From Nitrospirales bacterium (GTDB lineage: Bacteria > Nitrospirota > Nitrospiria > Nitrospirales > UBA8639): DNA of 64,000 nt. The position numbers and the translations under genes are program-made. A model generated the notes under the pieces. The model was not told where the DNA came from. It saw only the letters and a list, made by a program, of their open reading frames with translations, and ran no database searches. The stretch covers positions 62,001 through 126,000 of the forward strand of contig JAJDVY010000017.1 of assembly GCA_022825885.1 (NCBI GenBank). The letters run 5' to 3'. Of this stretch, positions 2,858 to 55,708 are shown one piece after another (the first letter of the stretch is position 1; each line of letters begins with the position of its first letter).

Positions 2858-4836
2858 CAGTGGACAGATGAACCGGTCAATGGTTCTGTTGGCATATCTT
2901 GTCGAATCAGATCTATCACCTCGCTGATTGGCAGTGTCCCCACGTTGGTCCCACTGCGTTTTCGCACGGAGACCGATTCGGCCTCCCGTTCCCGATCCCC
3001 CACGACAAGCATGTAGGGAATCTTGGCTTTTTCAGCTTCACGGATTTTGAGCCCAACCTTTTCTTTTCGCAAGTCCATCGAGGCGCGCAACCCGGTGCCC
3101 GCCAAGCGATCTTTGACGAGCGACGCATACTCCGCCTGTTTGTCCGTAATGGGCAGCACGATCGCCTGGACTGGGGCCAGCCACGTGGGAAACGCCCCGG
3201 CATAGTGTTCAATCAGAATGCCGAAGAACCGTTCGAGGGATCCCATCAGCGCCCGATGAATCATGATCGGTTGGTGCGCCGCGCCATCCTCCCCGATGTA
3301 GGATAACCCGAACCGTTCGGGATTATTGAAGTCGATTTGCACGGTCGAACATTGCCAGGCCCGTCCCAAGACGTCATGAATTTTCAGATCGATCTTCGGC
3401 CCGTAAAACACGCCTTCGCCGGGATCGATCTCATAGGGAAACCCGCTGTTTTTCAGCGCGGCTTCGAGGGCCTCCGTGGCCTGGTCCCACTTTTCCACGG
3501 CGCCGACGGCTTTTTCCGGCCGGGTGGACAGATACAACGCAAACTCCGTAAAGCCGAAGCGCCGGAGGACGAACATCGTGAAATCCAGAACTTTTCTGAC
3601 TTCGGATTCGATCTGGTCAGGCCGGCAGAAGATGTGCGCGTCATCCTGCGTGAATCCCCGCACGCGCATGAGGCCGTGCAACACCCCTGATCGCTCGTAG
3701 CGATAGACCGTTCCCAATTCTCCATAACGAATGGGAAGCTCCCGGTAGCTGCGCAAGTGCGACTTGTACACCATGATGTGGAATGGGCAATTCATGGGCT
3801 TTAATTGGTACTCCCCCGCCTCCACGGTCATGGGCGTGAACATGTTCTCCTTGTAATAGTCCACGTGCCCGCTGGTCTTCCACAGATCCAACCGCGCCAC
3901 GTGCGGGGAATAGATCAACTCGTAGCCGTTCTGCACGTGGCTCTCCCGCCAGAAATTTTCGATCAACAACCGAACCAGCGCTCCCTTGGGATGCCACAGG
4001 ATCAAGCCCGGCCCCGTGTCCTCGGGGCTGCTGAAGAGATCCAATTCCTTGCCGAGTTTCCGATGATCGCGGCGTTTGATTTCTTCGAGTTTCTCCAGAT
4101 GGGCATCCAGCTCCGCCTGGGTGGGAAACGAGGTCCCATAAATGCGCTGGAGCATGGGATTGCGTTCATCTCCCCGCCAATACGCGCCGGCGGCGCTCAA
4201 CAACTTGAACGCTTTCACCTGACCGGTTGCACCCACGTGCGGGCCCCGGCACAAATCAATGAAGTTGCCCTGCTGGTAAAGGGAGACGACGTCATCCTCG
4301 ATCTGCTCAATAATTTCGACCTTGAAGGCTTCTTCCTTTTCCCGAAACAGGTTGATCGCGTCTTCTTTCGACATTTCCAGACGGCGCACGGCATAATTTT
4401 CCTGAATAATCTCGTGTGCCCGGGCCTCGATTTTTTCGAGATCCTCCGGCGTGAACGGCCGCTCAAAGGAAAAGTCGTAATAAAAGCCCTCGTGAATGGC
4501 CGGACCGATCGTCAGGTTGGCCGACGGGAACACGTCTTTCACGGCCTGCGCCATGATGTGGGTACTGCTGTGGCGATAAATTTCCTTGCCGTCCTCCGAC
4601 GCAAAGGTCACGGGTTCCAGCGTGGCGTTCCTGTTCAGGGGCGCACTCAAGTCACCGGGTTGACCATCGATCCTCACAGCGAACACCTCCGGCGGAAGCG
4701 GCCCCGTCAACTCCGTCAATGCCTCGCGCGCCGTGATCCCCGGCCGAAAGGTTTTCGTACCGGTCCCCGGCAAGGCTATCTCGATCTGTTCGCTTTGGAC
4801 TTTTTCGGTTTCAATCGAAACTGACACGCGTCTCAT
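2857..4836 (-). CDS. thrS: threonyl-tRNA synthetase
   Basis: This 659-residue class II synthetase has the full domain order: TGS domain (about 10-75), editing domain with HSSTH (89-93) and CRGPH (196-200), catalytic core and C-terminal anticodon-binding domain. C350 (in KPMNC) and H401 match two zinc ligands that recognise threonine, and RYERSGVLHG (379-388) is class motif 2. It charges tRNA-Thr and removes mischarged serine. Length is close to the E. coli enzyme (642). It heads the infC-rpmI-rplT operon. tRNA-Val lies 46 bases upstream on the same strand and may share its transcript. Confidence 0.98.
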   Translation of the reverse strand: MRRVSVSIETEKVQSEQIEIALPGTGTKTFRPGITAREALTELTGPLPPEVFAVRIDGQPGDLSAPLNRNATLEPVTFASEDGKEIYRHSSTHIMAQAVKDVFPSANLTIGPAIHEGFYYDFSFERPFTPEDLEKIEARAHEIIQENYAVRRLEMSKEDAINLFREKEEAFKVEIIEQIEDDVVSLYQQGNFIDLCRGPHVGATGQVKAFKLLSAAGAYWRGDERNPMLQRIYGTSFPTQAELDAHLEKLEEIKRRDHRKLGKELDLFSSPEDTGPGLILWHPKGALVRLLIENFWRESHVQNGYELIYSPHVARLDLWKTSGHVDYYKENMFTPMTVEAGEYQLKPMNCPFHIMVYKSHLRSYRELPIRYGELGTVYRYERSGVLHGLMRVRGFTQDDAHIFCRPDQIESEVRKVLDFTMFVLRRFGFTEFALYLSTRPEKAVGAVEKWDQATEALEAALKNSGFPYEIDPGEGVFYGPKIDLKIHDVLGRAWQCSTVQIDFNNPERFGLSYIGEDGAAHQPIMIHRALMGSLERFFGILIEHYAGAFPTWLAPVQAIVLPITDKQAEYASLVKDRLAGTGLRASMDLRKEKVGLKIREAEKAKIPYMLVVGDREREAESVSVRKRSGTNVGTLPISEVIDLIRQDMPTEPLTGSSVH

Positions 4837-4882
4837 ACTCCCATCATCCCCAACAACCGGCGCTCTCCCAAAGGAAGAGGGG

Positions 4883-4957
4883 TGGTAGGCGCGGGCGGTA
4901 TTGAACCGCCGACCTCTACCGTGTCAAGGTAGCGCTCTCCCCCTGAGCTACGCGCCT
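4883..4957 (-). tRNA. tRNA-Val (anticodon GAC)
   Basis: A cloverleaf is visible on the minus strand. The acceptor stem is AGGCGCG (4957 inward) with CGCGCCT. The anticodon stem is CTACC/GGTAG around loop TTGACAC, giving anticodon GAC (Val). The T arm is GGCGG TTCAATA CCGCC, and CCA is encoded at the 3' end. Length is 75 bases with CCA. It lies immediately upstream of thrS in the same direction. Confidence 0.96.
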
Positions 4958-4971
4958 ATCAAAAACAAAAT

Positions 4972-5001
4972 ATGCTAGAGGAGCCTCTCGTCTTCTGTCA
5001 A
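4972..5001 (-). promoter_or_regulatory. sigma70-type promoter for tRNA-Val (and perhaps thrS)
   Basis: On the minus strand a perfect TTGACA (5001-4996), an 18-base spacer and TAGCAT (4977-4972) predict a start near 4965, eight bases before the tRNA 5' end. The spacing fits a tRNA promoter well. It ends only nine bases from the left direct repeat of the inserted segment (5010-5021), so the insertion left it intact. Confidence 0.65.
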
Positions 5002-5009
5002 GAAATCCA

Positions 5010-5034
5010 GGATTCCGGTAGTGTCCTAATTTGA
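5010..5034. repeat. left boundary repeats of the 5.0-7.85 kb segment
   Basis: GGATTCCGGTAG (5010-5021) is repeated exactly in direct orientation at 7830-7841. Next to it, GTCCTAATTTGA (5023-5034) occurs exactly as its reverse complement at 7811-7822. Direct repeats outside and inverted repeats inside is the layout of a mobile element with terminal inverted repeats and a target duplication, though 12 bp would be a long duplication. The 144 bases between 5034 and the dinD stop hold nothing I recognise. Confidence 0.6.
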
Positions 5035-5178
5035 AATCGAGTGGGCGGGTCTTGCGATTCGGCGCAATGTGTACGGGAATTATATACTTAACGGCGTCAC
5101 CGGCCTCGTCTCATATCCCATATTTCTACTACACCTAGATTGAATCGAAAAAGGGTAGTAGACAGGGAATGTGGAGGG

Positions 5179-6024
5179 TTAGACCGTGTCCAAAGCCTCT
5201 GGATTTCGTAAACTTTTCTTTTCATCTGACTGCAACTGCCTTTCCACCTTTTTCACATCGTCGGTGGGCGGCAATCGCTCTGGCTCTATACCCCTCTCAA
5301 GTAAAGTCTTTCTCACACTTTCGTTGTTGGTCATGTGCTCCTGAGAGATTGTCTGTTCCGTTTGGAGTTGATTGGCTTTGGTATTGAAAATCGTGATTTC
5401 AGTGGCGAAATCCTTGGCTTTCAACACGATGGTCGGTGCAAAATCTGCCAATGCCCTGTGTTTGGGCACATTCCATCTCTGCTTCATTTGTTCAGTGGTA
5501 TAGCCAAACAAGGCTTTATCGCCTTTGGACCGAATAATCCCAAAGTTTTTCTCGCTCCCTGTGTAGTCATAAATCACACCTGACAACTCTTTTTCCGTAT
5601 TCGTCAGTTTCCTCCTGGCGGAAATCCGTTCTGTTTCACGGATACGTTTTTCGATAAGTTCCAATTTACGTGTTTGTACGGCGAAGTAGGTTTGGGCAAA
5701 GGCGACTGGCCCCTTGCGGGGGTCGCCGTTTTGGGCGATCAGGTAGCAGGCATATCGAGTGAGCATCATGTCAGGCACCTCCCGCTGGCTCCCGGAACCG
5801 AGAGAGACCATTTTGCTGGCGTCGGCAAAATGGTCGAGAACAGGATGCCCAGCCATCTCACAGGCAGTTTTTGCCTTATCTATCACGGCTTTGAAGTTAT
5901 TCCATTTCCCATATCCAAGAAGGCTCTGAAGGTCACGGGCTAGCCAGAACTGAATCCCATTGTCGGTTTGTCTGGCATGGGATTCAAAATCATTGGTGAG
6001 TGCTTGGATAATTTCAGTTTCCAC
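5179..6024 (-). CDS. dinD: DNA damage-inducible protein D family
   Basis: This 281-residue protein matches the DinD family (E. coli DinD is 274 residues). Features are FWLARDLQSLLGYGKWNNF (about 27-45), MLTRYACYLIAQNGDPRK (about 87-104), the ISARRKLTNTEKELSGVIY segment and the C-terminal LERGIEPERLPP. In E. coli DinD is SOS-induced and inhibits RecA-DNA interactions; here the family is often found on mobile segments. The start is GTG 6024 with GGAG about ten bases upstream. I see no clear LexA box directly upstream. It is the last gene of a three-gene leftward group and overlaps the end of a broken gene by 11 bases. Confidence 0.9.
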   Translation of the reverse strand: METEIIQALTNDFESHARQTDNGIQFWLARDLQSLLGYGKWNNFKAVIDKAKTACEMAGHPVLDHFADASKMVSLGSGSQREVPDMMLTRYACYLIAQNGDPRKGPVAFAQTYFAVQTRKLELIEKRIRETERISARRKLTNTEKELSGVIYDYTGSEKNFGIIRSKGDKALFGYTTEQMKQRWNVPKHRALADFAPTIVLKAKDFATEITIFNTKANQLQTEQTISQEHMTNNESVRKTLLERGIEPERLPPTDDVKKVERQLQSDEKKSLRNPEALDTV

Positions 6025-6357
6025 GGTTCATGCTCCAAATATGAGAGATTAGTGCTGACCCGCCGAGCTTACAATCGCTCACAATCGAAGCCCGAACCAC
6101 ATCAATCGGCGATGTGACTGGCAGTGCATACAAAACTGCATAGAATTTCCGTTTTTTGATCCTTCTACTGTGGCGAAGCCCACACAATAACAGACAGAAG
6201 CCGTGGGGTGCCCCGTGAGGTCGAAGACATGGACCTCGCCTTCCTATACCGTTTTGCCTTCATATCGCTCGATGACCGGGACCACTTCTCGGAACGTGGC
6301 TCGACTCTGATGGAGGTGCTCGACAGCCTCCCGGAGGGCATCGAGGGAGGCCGTCAT
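6014..6357 (-). pseudogene. broken small gene between the winged-helix gene and dinD
   Basis: Starting at ATG 6357, which overlaps the upstream stop as ATGA, the frame encodes 37 residues (MTASLDALREAVEHLHQSR at the start) and hits TAG at 6244-6246. The same frame then continues with GEVHVFDLTGHPTASVCYCV. At an A6 run (T6 on the plus strand, 6152-6157) the sensible reading shifts by one base to KKRKFYAVLYALPVTSPIDV and ends at TGA 6016-6014. I recall a small uncharacterised family reading KTVWEGxVHVFDLTGHPTA followed by FYAVLHxPPVTSP, so the TAG probably replaces a Trp codon. Two independent lesions make this a pseudogene of about 114 codons. The parent family's function is unknown to me. Confidence 0.65.
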
Positions 6358-7319
6358 GCCTGCAATTCAGAGGTTGACTCTGGATGGGCCTTCGAAGTCA
6401 CCAAGGGTTTATATCGCTCAATGAGATCCTGTAAATTCTGATACATGTCTTCCGTGATGGGGTCTGGAAGAATCAGTACCGCCACGGCTCCACCGCCAAG
6501 CGGAATAGGATATTGTTGTTGCATAGTCGTCCCTCCTATAGGAGTGGGATTCATAGGGAATGCCGATGAAGGGACAGGCGACGGTGGGGTTGCAGTTGAA
6601 GAGGGCGGCGCACATTTTCTGAGTTGTTTGACTGGAACGCCTGTCGTCGTGACGACTGGATCAAACAACGCAAATGGTTCACCTTGTGGGGAAACCCCCA
6701 ACTTCTTGATCTGGGCCGCAGCATGAAATTGGTCCTGGTCGTTAATTGTGGCCTGCACATAATCACCCACCTGTAAGGTTTCCGTTTCAGACAAGCTACC
6801 TTCATCTTGCCCTGACAGATTATCATTCGCTCCCGCATGAATCAAGCCCGATTCGCTTTGGCCGGTCATACGAGCAAACTCCATGGTGGCTCGCCAGACG
6901 CGGAGACAATTTGTGGCTCCATCACCCGTAAATTTTTTCACGACAATCAGCGTATGCCGAATAGAATCATCCGAGGCCGACCGTTTCTCACGATACAATT
7001 CATCAAAAATCGGTGGGGCCAAGGCCGCCTTGTGGACAGCTTCTTGATGTTCAGGGTTAGTACTGTCCATAGTCAAAATGGTTAAGGCTCTGCCTGAGAG
7101 GCACACCTCTCCTTTTCCCTTTTGCTCAAGGAGACCATATTGTTTCATGGCCGCAAGCCGAACCCTGGCGGGGCCGCTGAAACTCTTGTATCCGAGGTGC
7201 GTCGAAGCAACACTCTCAGCAAAAGTCGTCTGTCCTTCCTTCTTAAACAACTTCTGGACATCTTGGATCGCGTCACCTAAATGGTGCCCCGGATAATTGG
7301 GGCTTCGCTGCTTACTCAT
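6354..7319 (-). CDS. winged-helix-like protein with Pro-rich linker, unknown function
   Basis: This is a 321-residue protein I cannot name. The N-terminal 75 residues look like a winged helix (DAIQDVQKLFKKEG, then LGYKSFSGPARVRLAAMKQY at 43-62, then LLEQKGKGEVCLSGRAL). A Pro/Ser/Thr-rich linker runs from about 237 to 265. The C-terminus has an IPLGGGAVAVLILPDPITED segment, reminiscent of a short beta-plus-helix tail in some mobile-element regulators. It is first in a leftward group with the broken gene and dinD, behind a strong promoter at 7377-7405. Role is inferred only: possibly a regulator carried by the segment. Confidence 0.6.
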   Translation of the reverse strand: MSKQRSPNYPGHHLGDAIQDVQKLFKKEGQTTFAESVASTHLGYKSFSGPARVRLAAMKQYGLLEQKGKGEVCLSGRALTILTMDSTNPEHQEAVHKAALAPPIFDELYREKRSASDDSIRHTLIVVKKFTGDGATNCLRVWRATMEFARMTGQSESGLIHAGANDNLSGQDEGSLSETETLQVGDYVQATINDQDQFHAAAQIKKLGVSPQGEPFALFDPVVTTTGVPVKQLRKCAPPSSTATPPSPVPSSAFPMNPTPIGGTTMQQQYPIPLGGGAVAVLILPDPITEDMYQNLQDLIERYKPLVTSKAHPESTSELQA

Positions 7320-7376
7320 ACGCTCCTCCTTTATGAGTAGAATAGGCTGAAAAGGCTAATGTCTGGGCATTTACTC

Positions 7377-7405
7377 AATATAGACTCAATTCAGATCTCT
7401 GTCAA
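7377..7405 (-). promoter_or_regulatory. strong promoter for the winged-helix/dinD group
   Basis: On the minus strand TTGACA (7405-7400), a 17-base spacer and TATATT (7382-7377) form a near-consensus sigma70 promoter. It sits about 50 bases before the 7319 start. The octamer AATAGGCT occurs at 7341-7348, between promoter and gene, and again at 7429-7436 inside the divergent promoter. That suggests one regulator for both directions (inference). Confidence 0.75.
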
Positions 7406-7419
7406 CGCTAATATTTAAC

Positions 7420-7448
7420 TTGACAAATAATAGGCTAGTATGTAGATT
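7420..7448 (+). promoter_or_regulatory. divergent promoter toward the tmRNA-like region
   Basis: TTGACA (7420-7425), a 17-base spacer and TAGATT (7443-7448, four of six consensus bases) point rightward. The predicted transcript would start near 7455 and run into the strong hairpin at 7479-7504 and the tRNA-like 3' structure. No protein-coding frame with a start follows closely, so the product, if any, would be RNA. Confidence 0.5.
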
Positions 7449-7472
7449 GAGGCTATGCTGAAGATTATGCAC

Positions 7473-7504
7473 AAAAAAGCCCCCAGGACGGCTATCCTGG
7501 GGGC
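7473..7504 (-). terminator. strong hairpin with T6 on the minus strand
   Basis: GCCCCCAGGA (7479-7488) pairs perfectly with TCCTGGGGGC (7495-7504) around a 6-base loop. Read leftward it is followed by six T residues (7478-7473), a classical intrinsic terminator. It would stop leftward transcription from the restriction operon before it enters the dinD segment. Confidence 0.75.
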
Positions 7505-7514
7505 TTCGACAAGC

Positions 7515-7586
7515 GGGGCGCGGGGTGGACCCCTCTCCGGGACTTTACACTCTAGGGACGGGGTTCAATTCCCCGGCGCTCCACCA
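7515..7586 (+). ncRNA. tmRNA 3'-end-like / tRNA-like remnant
   Basis: GGGGCGC (7515-7521) pairs, with one G-U, with GCGCTCC (7576-7582), followed by ACCA. A perfect T arm, CGGGG TTCAATT CCCCG, spans 7559-7575. The middle is only 37 bases, with no good anticodon arm, unlike a tRNA. The block ending TCTAGGGACGGGG before the T loop resembles the 3' end of tmRNA. tmRNA 3' ends are common integration sites, so this may be an attachment-site copy. I cannot show that it is functional, and no tmRNA body is present. Confidence 0.45.
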
Positions 7587-7620
7587 TTTAACGCTCGTAG
7601 TATATCATAAAAGGTGGACC

Positions 7621-7799
7621 ACGAACAAATTGAAACCGTACAAACAAACCGCCGTCATCGCGTCTTTGCTTGAGGGCTGCTCAATTCGCTCCACCGAAAG
7701 GCTGACCGGCGTTCACCGTGATACGATCAGGCGGCCCTGGTATTGCTTCATGGACTGGAGGCCTGTGTAGCAACTTGGCATCGTGGAGAAAAGATATGA
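7621..7799 (+). pseudogene. N-terminal stub of an IS1-type transposase
   Basis: From 7621 the frame reads TNKLKPYKQTAVIASLLEGC and then SIRSTERLTGVHRDTIRR, the HTH N-terminus of IS1/InsA-like transposases. The usual ATG is ACG here. After DTIRR the sensible frame shifts by one near 7731 and continues ALVLLHGLEACVATWHRGEK to TGA at 7797-7799. The catalytic part is absent. The stub ends 11 bases before the right inverted repeat (7811-7822), so it marks the right end of the inserted segment. It cannot make active transposase. Confidence 0.75.
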
Positions 7800-7810
7800 A
7801 AAAGTTAAAG

Positions 7811-7845
7811 TCAAATTAGGACCCTACCCGGATTCCGGTAGGGTC
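7811..7845. repeat. right boundary repeats and hairpin
   Basis: TCAAATTAGGAC (7811-7822) is the exact inverse of 5023-5034, and GGATTCCGGTAG (7830-7841) is an exact direct copy of 5010-5021. At this end they are fused into a perfect 9-bp hairpin, GACCCTACC (7820-7828) with GGTAGGGTC (7837-7845), loop 8 bases. The left end lacks this hairpin. It could be an att-type site, an insertion end or a recombination scar. Confidence 0.6.
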
Positions 7846-7895
7846 TCAGTTTAAATTTCGCTTCTTCACTTTCTTGACTCATGTGCTATTGGAAT

Positions 7896-49311: not shown

Positions 49312-50439
49312 ATGTCCAAACCAACGGTCCTTCTCGGAATGAGCGGCGGCGTCGATAGCTCGGTCGCAGCATTACTGCTGACGGAACAGGGCTATGACGT
49401 GAAAGGGGTGACGCTACAAGTCTGGGAGCCTGAAGATGAACAGGCGGCGGTGTCGAAAAAGTGGGAAGAACGCGGTTGTTGCAAGGTCGGCCTGGCCAGG
49501 CACGTCGCCCGGCGGTTAGGCCTTTCCCATGAAGTGGTCGATACCCGGGAGATCTTTCGCACAAATGTCATGGATGATTTTATCGCAGGGTATTTGAATG
49601 GGACCACCCCCAATCCGTGCGTGCGATGCAACGAACGGGTGAAGTTCGGGCAATTATATCAACTGGCACAAGACCGGGGGGTCGACTTCGTGGCCACCGG
49701 GCACTATGCCCGAGTCTTACCTGTCGATCAGGGAGTCGGCCTGTTTCGAGGGACTGATGCCAGGAAAGAGCAGTCCTATTTTTTGTACAGACTTCCGGCC
49801 GCCTGGCTTCCCCATATCCTGTTTCCGGTGGGGCATCTGCAAAAAGCGGAAGTGTGGGAACGTGCGGAAGAGTTGGACCTGCCGGCCGATGAAATGAAGG
49901 AAAGCCAGGAAATTTGTTTTGTCACCCAAGGTGACTATCGCACGTTCTTGATCGAGGAAGCACCACAGGCTCTCCGTCCGGGCCCGTTTCTCGACCCGGA
50001 AGGCCGCAAAATCGGAGAGCATCGCGGCATTGCCTTTTATACGCCAGGCCAACGAAAAGGGTTGGGCATTGCACTTGGCGAACGCCTCTACGTCAAGGAA
50101 GTGAACCCCGAAACCAACGCGGTCGTCTTGGGACGCGCGGAAGATCTGTCCAGACGAACGTGCATGGTACATGATCTGAATTGGTTGACCGACACCGTGC
50201 CCGCCATGGAGCAAGTAGACATCAAATACCGATATGCCTCGCCGGCCGTTTCCGGCCGCGTTCGGCAGCAGACCGCGGGGACCCTCTCCGTTGAATTCCA
50301 GGAACCGCAACAAGCCCTGAGTCCCGGCCAGTCGCTGGTCCTCTATCAAGCCGACCGCGTGCTCGGCGGCGGAATCATCCAGCCATTCGAGCGTCAGCAA
50401 AGTTCGACGGTATTTAGCGAAACGACAAGCCATCGCTAA
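49312..50439 (+). CDS. mnmA: tRNA 2-thiouridylase MnmA
   Basis: This 375-residue PP-loop enzyme has GMSGGVDSSVAALLL (8-22), NPCVRCNERVKFG (about 101-113) with the catalytic Cys, the second Cys in QEICFVTQGDY (near 202), and YTPGQRKGLGIALGERLYVK. It puts sulfur on C2 of wobble uridine 34. Together with MnmE and MnmG in this window, most of the xm5s2U34 pathway is encoded near the origin. DsrE/H-like proteins at 36.5-37.1 kb might be sulfur carriers, but that link is speculative. Confidence 0.97.
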   Translation: MSKPTVLLGMSGGVDSSVAALLLTEQGYDVKGVTLQVWEPEDEQAAVSKKWEERGCCKVGLARHVARRLGLSHEVVDTREIFRTNVMDDFIAGYLNGTTPNPCVRCNERVKFGQLYQLAQDRGVDFVATGHYARVLPVDQGVGLFRGTDARKEQSYFLYRLPAAWLPHILFPVGHLQKAEVWERAEELDLPADEMKESQEICFVTQGDYRTFLIEEAPQALRPGPFLDPEGRKIGEHRGIAFYTPGQRKGLGIALGERLYVKEVNPETNAVVLGRAEDLSRRTCMVHDLNWLTDTVPAMEQVDIKYRYASPAVSGRVRQQTAGTLSVEFQEPQQALSPGQSLVLYQADRVLGGGIIQPFERQQSSTVFSETTSHR

Positions 50440-50642
50440 TGTAGGATGTCCCCGAGCCAAGGCGTGCGAATGTCGGCGCTGGTTCACGGCGACTACTTAT
50501 ACAAAATGCTAAGCAAACAAAGAGCGGAGAAGCTACTTGCTGAGACTAACCTGTTCGTGAAGTAGAAGAGGATGTAATGGAGGGATGAATCCACGAATCA
50601 AACCACTTGGAGTGGTGCTTTGTGCGTATGCGGGAGTAAAAA
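50440..50642. other. gap before SIR2 gene with a 31-codon frame
   Basis: A short frame (50470-50565, MSALVHGDYLYKMLSKQRAE and on to NLFVK) is present without a ribosome-binding site, so I do not call it a gene. No promoter match stands out. The composition changes here from the GC-richer mnmA to the AT-richer accessory region. Confidence 0.35.
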
Positions 50643-53600
50643 ATGATTGACATTCCTCCAACTCTGAAAGATGCAGTCAAAGAACAACGTGCAGTACTCT
50701 TTCTAGGCGCGGGCGCAAGCTACAACGCTAAACATCCCAAGGGAGATGAGATTCCACAGGGTGATAACCTTCGCAAGCTAATCTGCCAGAAATTTTTGGG
50801 CGGTAAGCTGATGCAGAAGCCCCTCAACGCCATAGCGGCTATGGCAGCCAACGAAGCGGGCCGCACCGAATTTCAAAGCTATATCTCTGAACTGTTCAAA
50901 CCGTTTGAGCCAGCAGACTTCCATTTTTTGATCCCTACATTCCGGTGGCGCGCCATTGTCACCACAAATTTCGACCTAATTGTCGAAAGGGCCTACGCGA
51001 ACACCCCAAATAGGCGGCAAAACCTAATCAAGATAGTGAAGGATGGTGACAGAATTGATGCAAGATTAAATCAAGAATCCAATCCCGTCGGATTCTACAA
51101 GTTGCACGGATGTATCGAATCGTATTCTGATTTGGAAATTCCACTTATCCTCAGCAATGAGCAATACGCAAGTTATAGGAAGAATAGAACTCGTCTTTAC
51201 GATCGGGTTCGCGATCTGGGATACGAATATCCGATCATTTTTTCAGGTTATTCGATTTCCGACCCACATATTCAAGAGCTGTTGTTCGACCTGACTGACG
51301 ACAGCATCGATCGACCGCCTTTCTACTATTTATCTCCAGAGATTCCCCACCCTGAGAAACGATATTGGGAAAAATTTCGTGTCTTCACTGTCGAAACTAC
51401 ATTCGAAAATTTCCTCAAAACAATTGACCAAGCGATACCAAATATGGTGAGGGTGCTGCCTACCGACATCGGTGGTGGCGAACTATCTATCCGTAAACAC
51501 TACCGAATTGCACAACCAACAGAGTCGCAGTCTCTAAAAAGTTATATCGCCACTGATACCACGCACATTCACTCTGCGCTCACTGCCCCGCGGCAAGATC
51601 CTAGACAGTTCTATCGCGGATATGACGATGGGTGGGGTTGCATACTTCAAAATCTAGATGTCGACCGGTCATTTTCTGACTCAGTCCTTGTTGACACCAT
51701 TCTTCTTGCTGAAGAAAACCGCAGCACGACAGAACTTTTTATGCTTAAAGGGCCAGGAGGTAACGGCAAAAGTGTCTCCCTAAAGCGCATCGCTTGGGAA
51801 GCGGGCGTTACTTACGACAACCTTGTCCTATACAATGAAATTCCGGCTGGTCTTCGCATAGAGCCACTTACCGAAATTCACCGCTTAACTGGCAAGCGCA
51901 TCTTCCTATTTGTCGACCGAGTGGCACTCGTCCGTGATGAGTTAAGAAAACTGCTAGAAAACTCAAGATCTCAATCGATCCCACTTAGCGTAGTCGGTGC
52001 CGAGAGAGACAATGAATGGAACATTTATTGCGAACAACTCGAGCCATTTTTGCGTCAGGAATTTCCCGTTCGTTATCTGAACGAGAGGGAGATAAGAAAA
52101 CTTCTTAATCTATTGGAACAACACAATGCTCTCGGGCTGCTTCAGAACCTTGCTCCAGAAGATCGGGTGAGAAAATTCGTCGAAGGAGCCGAACGTCAGT
52201 TATTAGTCGCTCTCCATGAAGCGACGCTAGGAATTCCTTTCGAGGAAATTGTCGTTGATGAATTCCGACGCATCGAACCAGCGGTTGCCCGCAACCTATA
52301 TCTCGACATCTGCGCCCTCCACCAATTTGACGCACGAGTGCGCGTCGGTCTCATTTCACGCGCCTCCGGGATCCGGTTTGAGAAATTTCAAGCTGAATTC
52401 GTCCAACCTCTTGAAAATGTCGTCCGCGTCGTCCGGGATGGACACAACCGTGATGTCTATTACCGCAGTCGTCACCAGCATATCGCCGAGATCGTCTTCA
52501 ACAAAATGTTGCCCAGTCCAGAAGACAAGTTTGATCTTCTTGTGAGGCTGATCACAGCCATGAACATCGATTACTCGTCGGACTTTGATACTTTCTCTCG
52601 TTTGATTAAGGGAAGGCGCATTGCCGACATATTTCCGAGCGTCGAACTCGGGCGACTGTTCTATGAACGTGTTCAAGAGACGCTTCCCAAAGACTCATTC
52701 AGTTGGCATCAAAGAGCAGTTTTCGAGATGAAGCATACCGGAGGGGCACTTGCCCGAGCCGAAGAGGCGGCTGCACAAGCATTCAAATTGAATCCAAACA
52801 ACCATAGTATCCAACATACCCAAGCAGAGATTGCCCGCCAAATGGCCAATAATACGGACGACCCACTACGCAAGCAAAGCCTGAGGCGGACCACTCGAGA
52901 AAAACTCAGTGGCAACAACCAGCGGTCTAGCGAATATGACCTATACACACACGCGCAACTCGCTATCGACGAGTTCAAAGAGTTTGCAGCTTCGCTTAAT
53001 ATATCCGACGATAAAAAGCCTCCCACCACTTTCCTAGAGGCTGCGAAGGAAACCGAAACTGTGATCCAACGTGGCCTTCAAACCTTCCCAGAAAACACTG
53101 AATTGCTCGCTACCGAGGCAACTTTCAGAGAATTTCTCGCTCAAACCGCCCGGGCACGACAAGCCCTTGAGCGTGCCTTTAACTTGAATCCCCGGCAAGA
53201 CTGGCTCGCTGTTCGGTTGGCTCGCATGTATCAAGCATCAAATGAGACGATGAAAAGCATACGAGTATTGAAAGATTGCCTTCAGGATAATCCTTCCAGC
53301 AAGTTGGCACATCTCGAAATGGGCCGTATGCTCATCGAGTCTGGCGAAAACGAAGCAGCAATTGATCATCTAAGGCGAAGTTTCACGACAGGCGACAACA
53401 ATTTCGAAGGACAATTCTGGTATGCTCGCGAGTTGTTTCTTCTATCTCAGTGCGACAAAGCAGTCGAATTATTCGCTGCCCTTAACAACAAAGCACCTGG
53501 CCGATTCAGAACACGAGCGGCTGCCGTTGCTGAACGAGATGGTATCACAATCATGTATGATTGCCGCGTTGAACGCAAAGAAGAGGGCTATGCGTTTCTG

Positions 53601-53753
53601 AAGTTGTACGAATTTCCGAAAGATATCTTTGCATCCCGTGCCGACAGTGACCCCAGAGAGTGGGACAAATTGTATGCCAGAGCAGAAGCAAAATGCTCGC
53701 TTGCTTTCAATCGCCGAGGTGCCCGCGCAGTTTCCATTACCTTAGTTTCCTAA
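50643..53753 (+). CDS. SIR2-STAND-TPR protein with cold-shock-like C-terminus, defence candidate
   Basis: This 1036-residue multidomain protein has an N-terminal SIR2-like NADase domain with LGAGAS (21-26), TTNFD (107-111), YKLHG with catalytic-type H155, and SGYSISDPHI (201-210). A STAND-type NTPase follows with Walker A GPGGNGKS (370-377) and Walker B IFLFVD (420-425), then helical and TPR-type repeats (about 680-960). The last 70 residues (RVERKEEGYAFLKL, DIFASRAD, NRRGARAVSI) resemble a cold-shock OB fold. SIR2-STAND proteins such as Avs5 sense phage and deplete NAD+. Here the C-terminus could sense nucleic acid (inference). All key SIR2 residues appear intact. No partner gene is adjacent. 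Confidence 0.85.
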   Translation: MIDIPPTLKDAVKEQRAVLFLGAGASYNAKHPKGDEIPQGDNLRKLICQKFLGGKLMQKPLNAIAAMAANEAGRTEFQSYISELFKPFEPADFHFLIPTFRWRAIVTTNFDLIVERAYANTPNRRQNLIKIVKDGDRIDARLNQESNPVGFYKLHGCIESYSDLEIPLILSNEQYASYRKNRTRLYDRVRDLGYEYPIIFSGYSISDPHIQELLFDLTDDSIDRPPFYYLSPEIPHPEKRYWEKFRVFTVETTFENFLKTIDQAIPNMVRVLPTDIGGGELSIRKHYRIAQPTESQSLKSYIATDTTHIHSALTAPRQDPRQFYRGYDDGWGCILQNLDVDRSFSDSVLVDTILLAEENRSTTELFMLKGPGGNGKSVSLKRIAWEAGVTYDNLVLYNEIPAGLRIEPLTEIHRLTGKRIFLFVDRVALVRDELRKLLENSRSQSIPLSVVGAERDNEWNIYCEQLEPFLRQEFPVRYLNEREIRKLLNLLEQHNALGLLQNLAPEDRVRKFVEGAERQLLVALHEATLGIPFEEIVVDEFRRIEPAVARNLYLDICALHQFDARVRVGLISRASGIRFEKFQAEFVQPLENVVRVVRDGHNRDVYYRSRHQHIAEIVFNKMLPSPEDKFDLLVRLITAMNIDYSSDFDTFSRLIKGRRIADIFPSVELGRLFYERVQETLPKDSFSWHQRAVFEMKHTGGALARAEEAAAQAFKLNPNNHSIQHTQAEIARQMANNTDDPLRKQSLRRTTREKLSGNNQRSSEYDLYTHAQLAIDEFKEFAASLNISDDKKPPTTFLEAAKETETVIQRGLQTFPENTELLATEATFREFLAQTARARQALERAFNLNPRQDWLAVRLARMYQASNETMKSIRVLKDCLQDNPSSKLAHLEMGRMLIESGENEAAIDHLRRSFTTGDNNFEGQFWYARELFLLSQCDKAVELFAALNNKAPGRFRTRAAAVAERDGITIMYDCRVERKEEGYAFLKLYEFPKDIFASRADSDPREWDKLYARAEAKCSLAFNRRGARAVSITLVS

Positions 53754-53865
53754 TATGAGCACATTTCCCAACTCAGGGCTGAAAAGAGTTTCTGTGGAAC
53801 TTAAATGCAAGCCAGTGAAGTAAAGCCGTATCCGGGCGACTTATATCGAATAGTCACATTACGAA

Positions 53866-54062
53866 TTAGCATCGTTTCTTTGCCATCTTCTTCACCGGCC
53901 GAGGAAACACCTCTCGCAACGTTTTCAGACTCACTCCGGACGTCTCGACCTCTGCCTCGTGTAGCTTTAGACGGCTGGCTAATCCCGTGGCGGTATGGTG
54001 ATCGCAATAGGAATGATCTGAGATTTGGGAATTTTGGATTTGGAGGATTTAGAGGGCTTCAT
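53866..54062 (-). pseudogene. possible small gene remnant
   Basis: ATG 54062 opens MKPSKSSKSKIPKSQIIPIA, which stops after 27 codons. A frame shifted near 53995 reads LASRLKLHEAEVETSGVSLK and TLREVFPRPVKKMAKKRC to TAA 53868-53866. Both halves look coding-like, but I cannot identify a family. The rest of the 320-base gap behind the SIR2 gene contains nothing else I recognise. Confidence 0.3.
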
Positions 54063-54074
54063 GTCTTCGTTGTC

Positions 54075-54596
54075 TTACGATGGGCACACGGCCTCGTTCA
54101 CACGCAAATACTCTAGGATGAATCCGTCGAGAAGCTCTGACACGCCTTGCAGGATAAAGGACGCCGCACCTCTGCCATAGGTTCCAGTGGCACGCTGACT
54201 CCAAGTGATGGCAGGAGCTGACCGCCCGGACAGGGAATCGAACAAAATCTTACTGTATAACACCCTGATATGGAATGCATGTTTGATCACATGAACAGAG
54301 ACGATGAGCCCGCCACTGGTAAGATTCAACGTCGTAGTGTATAACCGCGCACTTCGCAGTCGGCTTTCGGCCGCTATCTGGATACGCTCCTTAGTCAGAC
54401 CGGTGTCTTCCGAATCATCTAGAGTAATAAACAGGTTCGTTGGCCGACACTCGTTGAAGAGCTGAAATCGCTCCAAGGAAGAATCGCTGTCTGAGGCGAC
54501 ACCCGAAGCAGGAAACATCGTCGTCAATACCGCTACCAATAGTGCAATCTGTGATAGGCGTAGACAATCCTTGGCAAAGAGGGTCGAAACAGTCAT
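54075..54596 (-). CDS. exported hypothetical protein
   Basis: From ATG 54596 (MTVSTLFAKDCLRLSQIALL, then VAVLTTMFPASGVAS) the 173-residue protein has a clear signal peptide; a longer start at 54677 is possible. The mature part alternates strands and turns (TTTLNLTSGGLIVSVHVIKH near 90) and has two cysteines (NECRP near 50 and the C-terminal EAVCPS). Likely periplasmic or outer-membrane associated. Family not recognised. It lies between the SIR2 gene and the second BrnTA pair, on the opposite strand to SIR2. Confidence 0.5.
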   Translation of the reverse strand: MTVSTLFAKDCLRLSQIALLVAVLTTMFPASGVASDSDSSLERFQLFNECRPTNLFITLDDSEDTGLTKERIQIAAESRLRSARLYTTTLNLTSGGLIVSVHVIKHAFHIRVLYSKILFDSLSGRSAPAITWSQRATGTYGRGAASFILQGVSELLDGFILEYLRVNEAVCPS

Positions 54597-54695
54597 TCCA
54601 CTAACTCTTTGCGAAAGACGAGAAAGCTGCTTAAGGGATGATAGTGGGTGGGCCTTCGGGGTAAGCGCTATAGGCACCGGCCGTCCACCAAATTG

Positions 54696-54908
54696 TCAGC
54701 CATGTTTTGACGCGTGTTCCCGGGCAATGTTGACCAGGGTTCGTAGGGCAGAGTTGACGGTGGCGGAATCCTTGAACACTGCGGCGACATCAGGTTCCAA
54801 CAGGACTAAATTCGTACCGTGGCGATAGGCTTCGTGGTGCTTGCCACGAACGCCACTCGAAAAATCGTATTCGGCACGCATCACATCCTGTTCACCGTCC
54901 TGATTCAT
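54696..54908 (-). CDS. BrnT-associated antitoxin
   Basis: From ATG 54908 the 70-residue protein reads MNQDGEQDVMRAEYDFSSGV, then RGKHHEAYRHGTNLVLLEPD and VAAVFKDSATVNSALRTLV. This is the small antitoxin family (MRAEYDFSxGVRGKHxxAYxxGTN) that commonly follows BrnT-like toxins, with DSxxVNxALRxL at the end. It lacks the HTH seen in the 26.7 kb antitoxin, so the two modules are of different subtype. It starts 17 bases inside the toxin gene. Confidence 0.82.
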   Translation of the reverse strand: MNQDGEQDVMRAEYDFSSGVRGKHHEAYRHGTNLVLLEPDVAAVFKDSATVNSALRTLVNIAREHASKHG

Positions 54909-55167
54909 AGTGCCTCCGCTCCTTTGGTGCCGCGACCCGAGCACTGACAATACGGATGCGCTCCTCACGCTCGGTATATGATACAACAAGAATGCGATTA
55001 CGTGCGGAGCAACCCATGCTCAGAAAGCGGAATTCTCCCACAGAATGATCCGGGTCCGCAATGGTCAACTCCAGCGGTTCGCCGAAGACGGTCGCGGCTT
55101 CTGTAAAATCGACACCATGCTTCTCGACATTCGATTGCTCTTTCTCGGGATTCCACTCGAATTCCAT
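54892..55167 (-). CDS. brnT: BrnT-family toxin (second copy)
   Basis: This 91-residue protein starts at ATG 55167 (MEFEWNPEKEQSNVEKHGVD); a GTG just before it is also in frame. BrnT features are FEWNPEKExxNxEKHGVDF, EAATVFGEPLELTIADPDHS, FRFLSMGCSARNRILVVSYT and IRIVSARVAAPKERRHYE. It is a ribonuclease-type toxin paired with the overlapping antitoxin. It shares the general plan of the 26.4 kb toxin, but sequence similarity is modest, so recent duplication is unlikely. Confidence 0.9.
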   Translation of the reverse strand: MEFEWNPEKEQSNVEKHGVDFTEAATVFGEPLELTIADPDHSVGEFRFLSMGCSARNRILVVSYTEREERIRIVSARVAAPKERRHYESGR

Positions 55168-55313
55168 CACGACGTCAACGTACCTGGTTTAAGGTCTCGT
55201 GTTATTAACAGCAAAAAGCGAGAAGAAAATGTGTTGTACGGCTTTTGCTCATAGCGTGCGCTAGTAGCTCCGTTGGCCATAGCGGGGAGATAACGGCGTA
55301 AAGGTACCTGCTT

Positions 55314-55343
55314 ACAAGAATAACAACAAGTTGTTATTCTTGT
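55314..55343. promoter_or_regulatory. perfect 30-bp palindrome upstream of ATPase stub
   Basis: ACAAGAATAACAAC (55314-55327) and GTTGTTATTCTTGT (55330-55343) are perfect 14-bp inverse arms around AA. It ends four bases before the ATG at 55348. It could be an operator covering the start, or an RNA hairpin hiding it. No run of T follows, so a terminator is unlikely. Confidence 0.7.
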
Positions 55344-55347
55344 CTGG

Positions 55348-55548
55348 ATGGAGCTAACTCACCATTATCAAAGGGAAATTGAAGTTCCTCGAAATGGCAC
55401 GGTTCTTCTCCTCGGTCCTCGGATGGTAGGTAAGACCACACTCTTGGCGGACCGGTACAAACCGGGCACGTGGTTTACACGGGGAGACTGCACGGCAGAA
55501 GCGGGGAACCATGTCTGCGCTGTCGGTTTAGGCCTTCGGCTCAACTGA
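55348..55548 (+). pseudogene. N-terminal stub of an AAA+ ATPase (DUF4143-type)
   Basis: The first 43 codons read MELTHHYQREIEVPRNGTVL and then LLGPRMVGKTTLLADRYKPG, the N-terminal region and P-loop (GPRMVGKTT) of the AAA_14/DUF4143 ATPase group. After GTWF the reading becomes unrelated and stops at 55546-55548 with 66 codons; full proteins have about 380-450. Truncated and surely inactive as an ATPase. The striking palindrome before it is still intact. Confidence 0.7.
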
Positions 55549-55708
55549 CCTGCGGCTCTCATCACTCGCCACTGACCACTAATAGCAGGAAGTTGTGGAC
55601 CCGGTCACTTGGTTGACACCCGGATTTTTCACGTGATAGCGTGACGTGTTTTTTGCGCAACCAGCGCAAACACTGGGGTTTTGCCTTTTTCTTCACAACT
55701 GATTCATC

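Follow-up and report, generated by a model that had tools for sequence, protein, structure and literature searches.

The window analysed here is a stretch of 64,000 nucleotides from a Nitrospirales bacterium (contig JAJDVY010000017.1 of assembly GCA_022825885.1), and the subject of this study is one gene within it, an open reading frame (ORF) at positions 50643-53753 on the plus strand that starts with ATG and runs without an internal stop for 1036 residues. The encoded protein consists of an N-terminal SIR2 domain, a STAND NTPase, TPR-type repeats and a C-terminal domain of the cold-shock type. The reverse strand across the same positions contains many stops and offers no competing frame. A decayed pseudogene was ruled out by the intact reading frame, the kept catalytic residues and a confident full-length AlphaFold model, which has a mean predicted local distance difference test score (pLDDT) of 86.1. 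The genome carries a single full-length copy, which is also its sole match to nSTAND_NTPase5 above the cut-off. A second SIR2-domain ORF, of 1276 residues and possibly Dsr-like, was observed elsewhere in the same genome (L002, G000:C45:41156-41515).

Domains of the window protein

The features of the gene are listed below. Conservation, here and throughout, is given as counts in a family alignment of 66 rows.

50643-53753, plus strand: whole SIR2-STAND-TPR-cold-shock gene, 1036 residues (ORF, Pfam, AlphaFold model)
50643-51452, plus strand: SIR2 effector domain of the NADase type, residues 1-270 (Pfam SIR2_2; VIA-align to ThsA 8btp)
50967-50975, plus strand: SIR2 N109-x-D111 within TTNFD (66/66)
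51105-51107, plus strand: SIR2 catalytic histidine H155 (64/66)
51603-52040, plus strand: STAND NTPase core, residues 321-466 (Pfam nSTAND_NTPase5)
51609-51620, plus strand: FYRG motif, residues 323-326, N-terminal of the P-loop (G326 in 66/66); human SAMD9 has DFYRGG
51750-51773, plus strand: Walker A GPGGNGKS, residues 370-377 (K376 in 64/66)
51900-51917, plus strand: Walker B IFLFVD, residues 420-425 (D425 in 66/66)
52083-52622, plus strand: helical STAND extension, residues 481-660, the best conserved region of the family, aligning with EfAvs5
52623-53492, plus strand: TPR-type helical array, residues 661-950 (Pfam TPR; all-helical in the model)
53538-53750, plus strand: C-terminal cold-shock/OB domain, residues 966-1036 (relatives' Pfam matches, profile, AlphaFold, Foldseek)
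53586-53603, plus strand: RNP1-like strand GYAFLK, residues 982-987 (aromatic at 983 in 60/66 and at 985 in 61/66)
53622-53636, plus strand: RNP2-like strand DIFAS, residues 994-998 (residue 996 is F or Y in 63/66)

The initial annotation, made from the sequence alone, had read an intact-looking SIR2 site (GAGAS, TTNFD, H155), a STAND NTPase (GPGGNGKS, IFLFVD) and TPR-type repeats from this chain, and all three assignments are borne out. Pfam SIR2_2 matches residues 104-247 (E 6e-22; 78.7 bits against a gathering score of 24.5), and N109 and D111 are invariant in the family while H155 is kept in all but two rows. The nSTAND_NTPase5 model matches residues 321-466 (E 1e-26; 94 bits against a gathering score of 34), with the Walker A lysine and the Walker B aspartate conserved as listed above, and Pfam TPR models match residues 833-910 in the all-helical part of the model. 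In terms of structure, the SIR2 domain superposes on ThsA (8btp) over 249 aligned residues with a Z of 25.6 and a root-mean-square deviation (rmsd) of 2.4, and also on KomC (Z 24.7) and DSR2 (Z about 24), both with an rmsd of about 2.5 (all by VIA-align). ThsA, KomC and DSR2 thus share the SIR2 fold and its catalytic residues with the family, but they have other regulatory parts and no nSTAND5-TPR-cold-shock arrangement.

The last 70 or so residues had been suspected of forming a cold-shock OB fold, and the structural searches agree. When the window's C-terminal domain was folded with the family alignment, AlphaFold predicted a five-stranded barrel (pLDDT 93.5; predicted template modelling score 0.79) with a short helix linking strands 3 and 4, and the barrel is present in the full-length model as well. 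The top Foldseek matches for the domain model are cold-shock folds, namely Unr (5e-5; template modelling score 0.83), CspC, YB-1 and CspA. The C-termini of the relatives match the cold-shock domain model PF00313 in 42 of 54 cases (best 1.7e-8), with fewer matching S1-like or RNase B OB models, and a profile of the C-terminal family domain, run against all PDB chains, retrieved almost exclusively cold-shock domains (Unr 2e-10, CspA 7e-10). A chance resemblance was rejected on the strength of the PF00313 matches of the relatives, the PDB profile search and Foldseek. The modelling thus identifies the C-terminus of the window protein as a true cold-shock-type OB fold.

In CspA, F18, F20 and F31 are the aromatic residues that stack on RNA bases. 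The corresponding positions in the window protein are Y983, F985 and F996, which are aromatic in 60, 61 and 64 of the 66 rows, respectively, and the mean aromatic fraction per column of the domain is 15%. The five-stranded barrel and these three aromatic positions are held in common with cold-shock proteins such as CspA/CspB, Unr and YB-1; the family differs from them in that its domain forms the terminal 70 residues of a STAND receptor, and in the window copy the RNP2 histidine is absent. A nucleic-acid-type ending had been considered unusual for such a protein, and this did not hold: the domain is discernible in nearly all full-length members of the family, and proteins of the SAMD9 family have the same OB ending (PMC5445408).

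Kinship to Avs5 and SAMD9

In a whole-model Foldseek search of the PDB, the top match was EfAvs5 (1.9e-24), followed by human SAMD9 (1.2e-19), with DSR2 ranking below both. By VIA-align, 736 residues were aligned with EfAvs5 (9jap; Z 22.4), covering residues 1-841 of the model only, and 837 residues were aligned with the human SAMD9 monomer (9zjr; Z 20.9), pairing residues 1-1035 of the model with 389-1589 of SAMD9. The rmsd of the whole-chain superpositions exceeds 20 in both cases and the domain arrangement differs, so that the alignments, made on a predicted model, are to be read as collinear domains and not as one rigid fold.

The likeness to Avs5 lies in the N-terminal SIR2 domain of the NADase type, the STAND NTPase and the helical repeats, and EfAvs5 can be aligned with the profile of the family across SIR2 and across the STAND core with its helical extension. 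According to the 2026 Avs5 paper (PMC12931631), the PaAvs5 model resembles SAMD9 and has helical repeats as its C-terminus, NAD+ hydrolysis by Avs5 is triggered by a jumbo-phage protein, and the phage protein JADA is recognised by Avs5 clades. Published Avs5 ends in helical repeats with no OB domain, and residue 841 is the last of the model to be aligned with EfAvs5. The Avs5 model of PADLOC did not match loci L040 and L033 at 0.01, and it matched L004 in the SIR2 part only. The view that the window protein is a relative of Avs5 is thus upheld as a kinship by fold to Avs5-type NADases, but the protein is not Avs5 as modelled by PADLOC.

The core of SAMD9 has been described as AlbA_2, a SIR2-like domain, a STAND-like P-loop, TPR and an OB domain closest to cold-shock proteins; many bacterial members bear a kinase, the Walker A lysine is changed to glycine, and some members have lost AlbA_2 (Mekhedov, Makarova and Koonin 2017, PMC5445408). 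The family shares with SAMD9 and SAMD9L the order of SIR2, STAND P-loop, TPR and cold-shock-like OB domain as well as a collinear fold along the whole chain, and it shares with SAMD9 the FYRG motif before the P-loop and, in part, the C-terminal motif F-x-L-G-F-x-x-x-G-P-x-A. Unlike SAMD9, the family keeps the SIR2 catalytic residues, has a lysine in Walker A (GK[ST]; GGNGKS in the window protein) where SAMD9 has GGT/S, and has no AlbA/tRNase, SAM, DEATH-type or kinase domain at the N-terminus, its SIR2 domain beginning at about residue 5.

At the level of sequence, direct similarity to SAMD9 is weak, and homology is suggested by a strong indirect link. SAMD9 fell outside the top 60 when the whole-family profile was compared with the PDB, and the profile of the STAND part gave it a weak match (0.006) amid other NTPases. 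The same STAND profile finds two bacterial SAMD9-type proteins, L177 (1614 residues, 2862-7703, minus strand) and L178 (1492 residues, 3410-7885, minus strand), and the link runs through these. Both have a TCAD9/APH-like N-terminus of kinase fold, nSTAND_NTPase5 above the cut-off and a SAMD9-type P-loop, GAGGTT, with a histidine just upstream, and their C-termini end in the same barrel motif as the family (FHLGFTYEGPRA in L178). Run against the PDB, a joint L177/L178 profile matches a single protein below 0.05, human SAMD9 (4e-13). The final residues of human SAMD9, FYLGFSIGGPLA, score 14.9 bits with the cold-shock profile of the family, a score that corresponds to E 0.16 at PDB scale for a stretch chosen after the fact. 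In summary, the family belongs neither to SAMD9, two of whose defining features it lacks, nor to Avs5, whose profile does not recognise it; in its predicted action it comes closest to Avs5, and in its build to SAMD9.

The kinship in fold and motifs to SAMD9 bears on a guard model, in which the cold-shock domain would monitor host RNA or translation, being held by the normal state of RNA or ribosomes and released upon phage takeover; SAMD9, whose effector targets tRNA, could retain the same logic. SAMD9 and SAMD9L act on tRNA and translation (PMC13245274), and Unr, to which the domain is closest in structure, regulates translation. For the OB domain of SAMD9, however, the role too is no more than a prediction (PMC13245274), and any RNA partner is putative. 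We regard the guard model as unlikely.

Distribution of the family and the locus

An alignment-based scan of GTDB species gave 80 loci, of which the 65 with ORFs of 1000-1110 residues entered the alignment. A search with the single protein had found nothing in GTDB contigs or viral contigs, and the GTDB blank reflects a limit of the pattern method, because the alignment-based search later gave these 80 loci. The full SIR2-STAND-TPR-cold-shock layout, whose recurrence in other genomes had been put forward as a check, is found in about 65 full-length relatives that share about 20-61% identity, span about 12 phyla and include plasmid copies; the nearest is encoded by a Poribacteria metagenome-assembled genome (61% identity). 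Among plasmids, 14 records from Klebsiella, Methylobacterium, Vibrio, Acinetobacter and Psychrobacter hold a copy that spans 80% or more of the query. Several of the Klebsiella plasmid copies are annotated as two ORFs beside an IS110-type transposase (L034:8995-12015), and the copy in pKPC2_090249 (L033) is intact. For the closest Klebsiella copy, no close DNA match was found among complete E. coli genomes. Searches of phage records and viral contigs found no copy either, which counts neither way.

Surveys with the STAND profile gave matches in 1-2% of genomes, 5 of 297 in one actinobacterial class and 8 of 398 in Pseudomonadota, and none of 14 control genomes exceeded the family cut-off. In the gene tree, the window protein forms a pair with the Poribacteria sequence (support 100), and the branch that contains this pair is mostly proteobacterial; L003, from the same phylum as the window protein, sits far away, so that the tree departs from taxonomy; this topology fits horizontal transfer without proving it. 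The gene has a G+C content of 48.1%, against a window mean of 54.5%. The distribution of the family is sporadic and mobile. This is the ground on which we set aside a housekeeping or stress regulator of the cold-shock type with sirtuin deacetylase activity and no role in defence. The cold-shock fold and the SIR2 fold would both suit such a protein, but its presence in so few surveyed genomes and in no control, its carriage on plasmids, its apparent transfer across phyla and a SIR2 domain that is nearest to NADases and coupled to STAND make this explanation very improbable.

The gene lies in an interval that was compared with that of sister genomes:

50429-55610, no strand: cargo slot, a segment between mnmA and atpH that is unlike that of sister species

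Among ten related genomes of the genus, the mnmA and atpH flanks are conserved wherever a contig spans both, and none of the ten has the SIR2-STAND gene in this slot. The interval is near-empty in G298 (about 160 bp, L153) and G227 (455 bp, L155), and in others it measures 5.5-6 kb and holds an unrelated double helicase, DEAD+UvrD, of 1710-1734 residues, which adjoins mnmA in 6 of the 10 genomes (L150, L151, L152, L154, L156 and L157). The interval of L158 holds a DUF218 gene. The mnmA-atpH interval is thus a variable cargo slot in the genus. As had been annotated, the window gene has mnmA upstream and a BrnT toxin gene downstream (54895-55170, minus strand; Pfam 1.4e-25); the supposed BrnA partner is unconfirmed, as the neighbouring ORF at 54696-54989 has no Pfam match. 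A truncated AAA_14 ATPase remnant is present at 55348-55548 (plus strand), and a sister-species interval has an intact AAA_14-DUF4143 protein of 379 residues (L151:250-1386). No Rfam family was found at the locus.

Within 2.5 kb of the relatives are type I, MmeI-type and MvaI/BcnI-type restriction-modification genes, MrcB_N, AbiEi and MADS proteins, together with eight integrase or resolvase matches, and fewer such genes lie at least 6.5 kb away. The counts of defence genes are about 10 near and about 4 far, of 148 genes, and are estimates of distinct proteins, since the PADLOC neighbour test reports families and not proteins.

Proposed mechanism and meaning

Considering the established architecture and folds, the conserved catalytic and RNA-stacking positions, the kinship to Avs5 and SAMD9 and the sporadic, mobile distribution, the window protein is probably a single-protein SIR2-STAND immune receptor of the Avs5-like, NAD-depleting, abortive-infection type on a SAMD9 chassis. 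That it is a NAD-depleting defence protein is highly likely, judging from its architecture, folds, conserved residues and kinship; that the cold-shock domain contributes to sensing or gating by binding nucleic acid is about as likely as not. The predicted NADase activity, antiphage role, oligomerisation and ligand would fit together as follows. In the resting state, the TPR array and the cold-shock domain would keep the STAND module closed. A phage-derived ligand, either a protein bound to the TPRs or a single-stranded nucleic acid (probably RNA) bound to the cold-shock domain, or both, would open the receptor. ATP binding by the STAND module would then lead to oligomerisation, perhaps into a filament like that of EfAvs5. 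The SIR2 domains would be activated and destroy NAD+, and the infected cell would halt before the phage matures.

Several observations weigh against this proposal. The PADLOC Avs5 model PDLC02170 did not match the window protein at E 1. The C-terminal 71 residues of the window copy, searched alone, matched no Pfam family and did not match PF00313 at E 0.1, and the RNP2 histidine is replaced by serine. The cold-shock domain is the least conserved in the family (0.37, versus 0.47-0.53 for SIR2, STAND and the helical extension). Relatives of 800-840 residues (L004, L167, L170, L171 and L172) have the SIR2 and nSTAND5 regions without a cold-shock domain, so the core may be able to work without it. 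The defence-island enrichment that had been proposed as a check is weak as well: the excess near the relatives is suggestive only (one-sided p about 0.08, with a second one-sided p of about 0.05).

Some of these points would suit an ordinary protein-sensing SIR2-STAND receptor, in which the TPRs recognise a phage protein and the barrel is a structural cap or autoinhibitory clamp that does not bind nucleic acid. The sensing of JADA by Avs5 clades, as reported in PMC12931631, the relatives that lack the domain, and its low conservation, with a window copy too diverged for Pfam, all point in this direction. However, the domain is retained by nearly every full-length member across about 12 phyla, and its three RNA-stacking positions are aromatic in more than 90% of rows, far from the column mean given above, although part of this could reflect the hydrophobic core. 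A purely protein-sensing receptor is possible but somewhat less than probable.

Returning to the proposed NAD-depleting receptor on a SAMD9 chassis, its architecture has precedent in the SAMD9 core and its bacterial relatives (2017, PMC5445408). As judged from sequence, the family is a distinct variant in which the SAMD9 core is complete, the residues of the SIR2 and NTPase sites are kept and the tRNase is absent. Our literature search, thin on subscription journals, found no paper describing a SIR2-nSTAND5-TPR-cold-shock family; overlap with the fourth Avs5 clade of PMC12931631 is possible. A further and doubtful suggestion is that the family represents, among present-day bacteria, the ancestral form of animal SAMD9, a receptor in which the binding of phage or host RNA by the cold-shock domain would trigger the destruction of NAD+. 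In the animal line, the chassis and the OB sensor would have been retained, the SIR2 site and the lysine of the P-loop would have degenerated, and a tRNase would have been added ahead of them.

If the domain does sense RNA, this would be a mode of phage detection without precedent among bacterial STAND receptors in the literature that could be searched. SAMD9 and SAMD9L are human antiviral and disease proteins. The family connects SAMD9 with the antiphage NADases of the Avs5 type, and it may offer a simple bacterial system for probing the job of the cold-shock/OB ending in proteins of the SAMD9 type.

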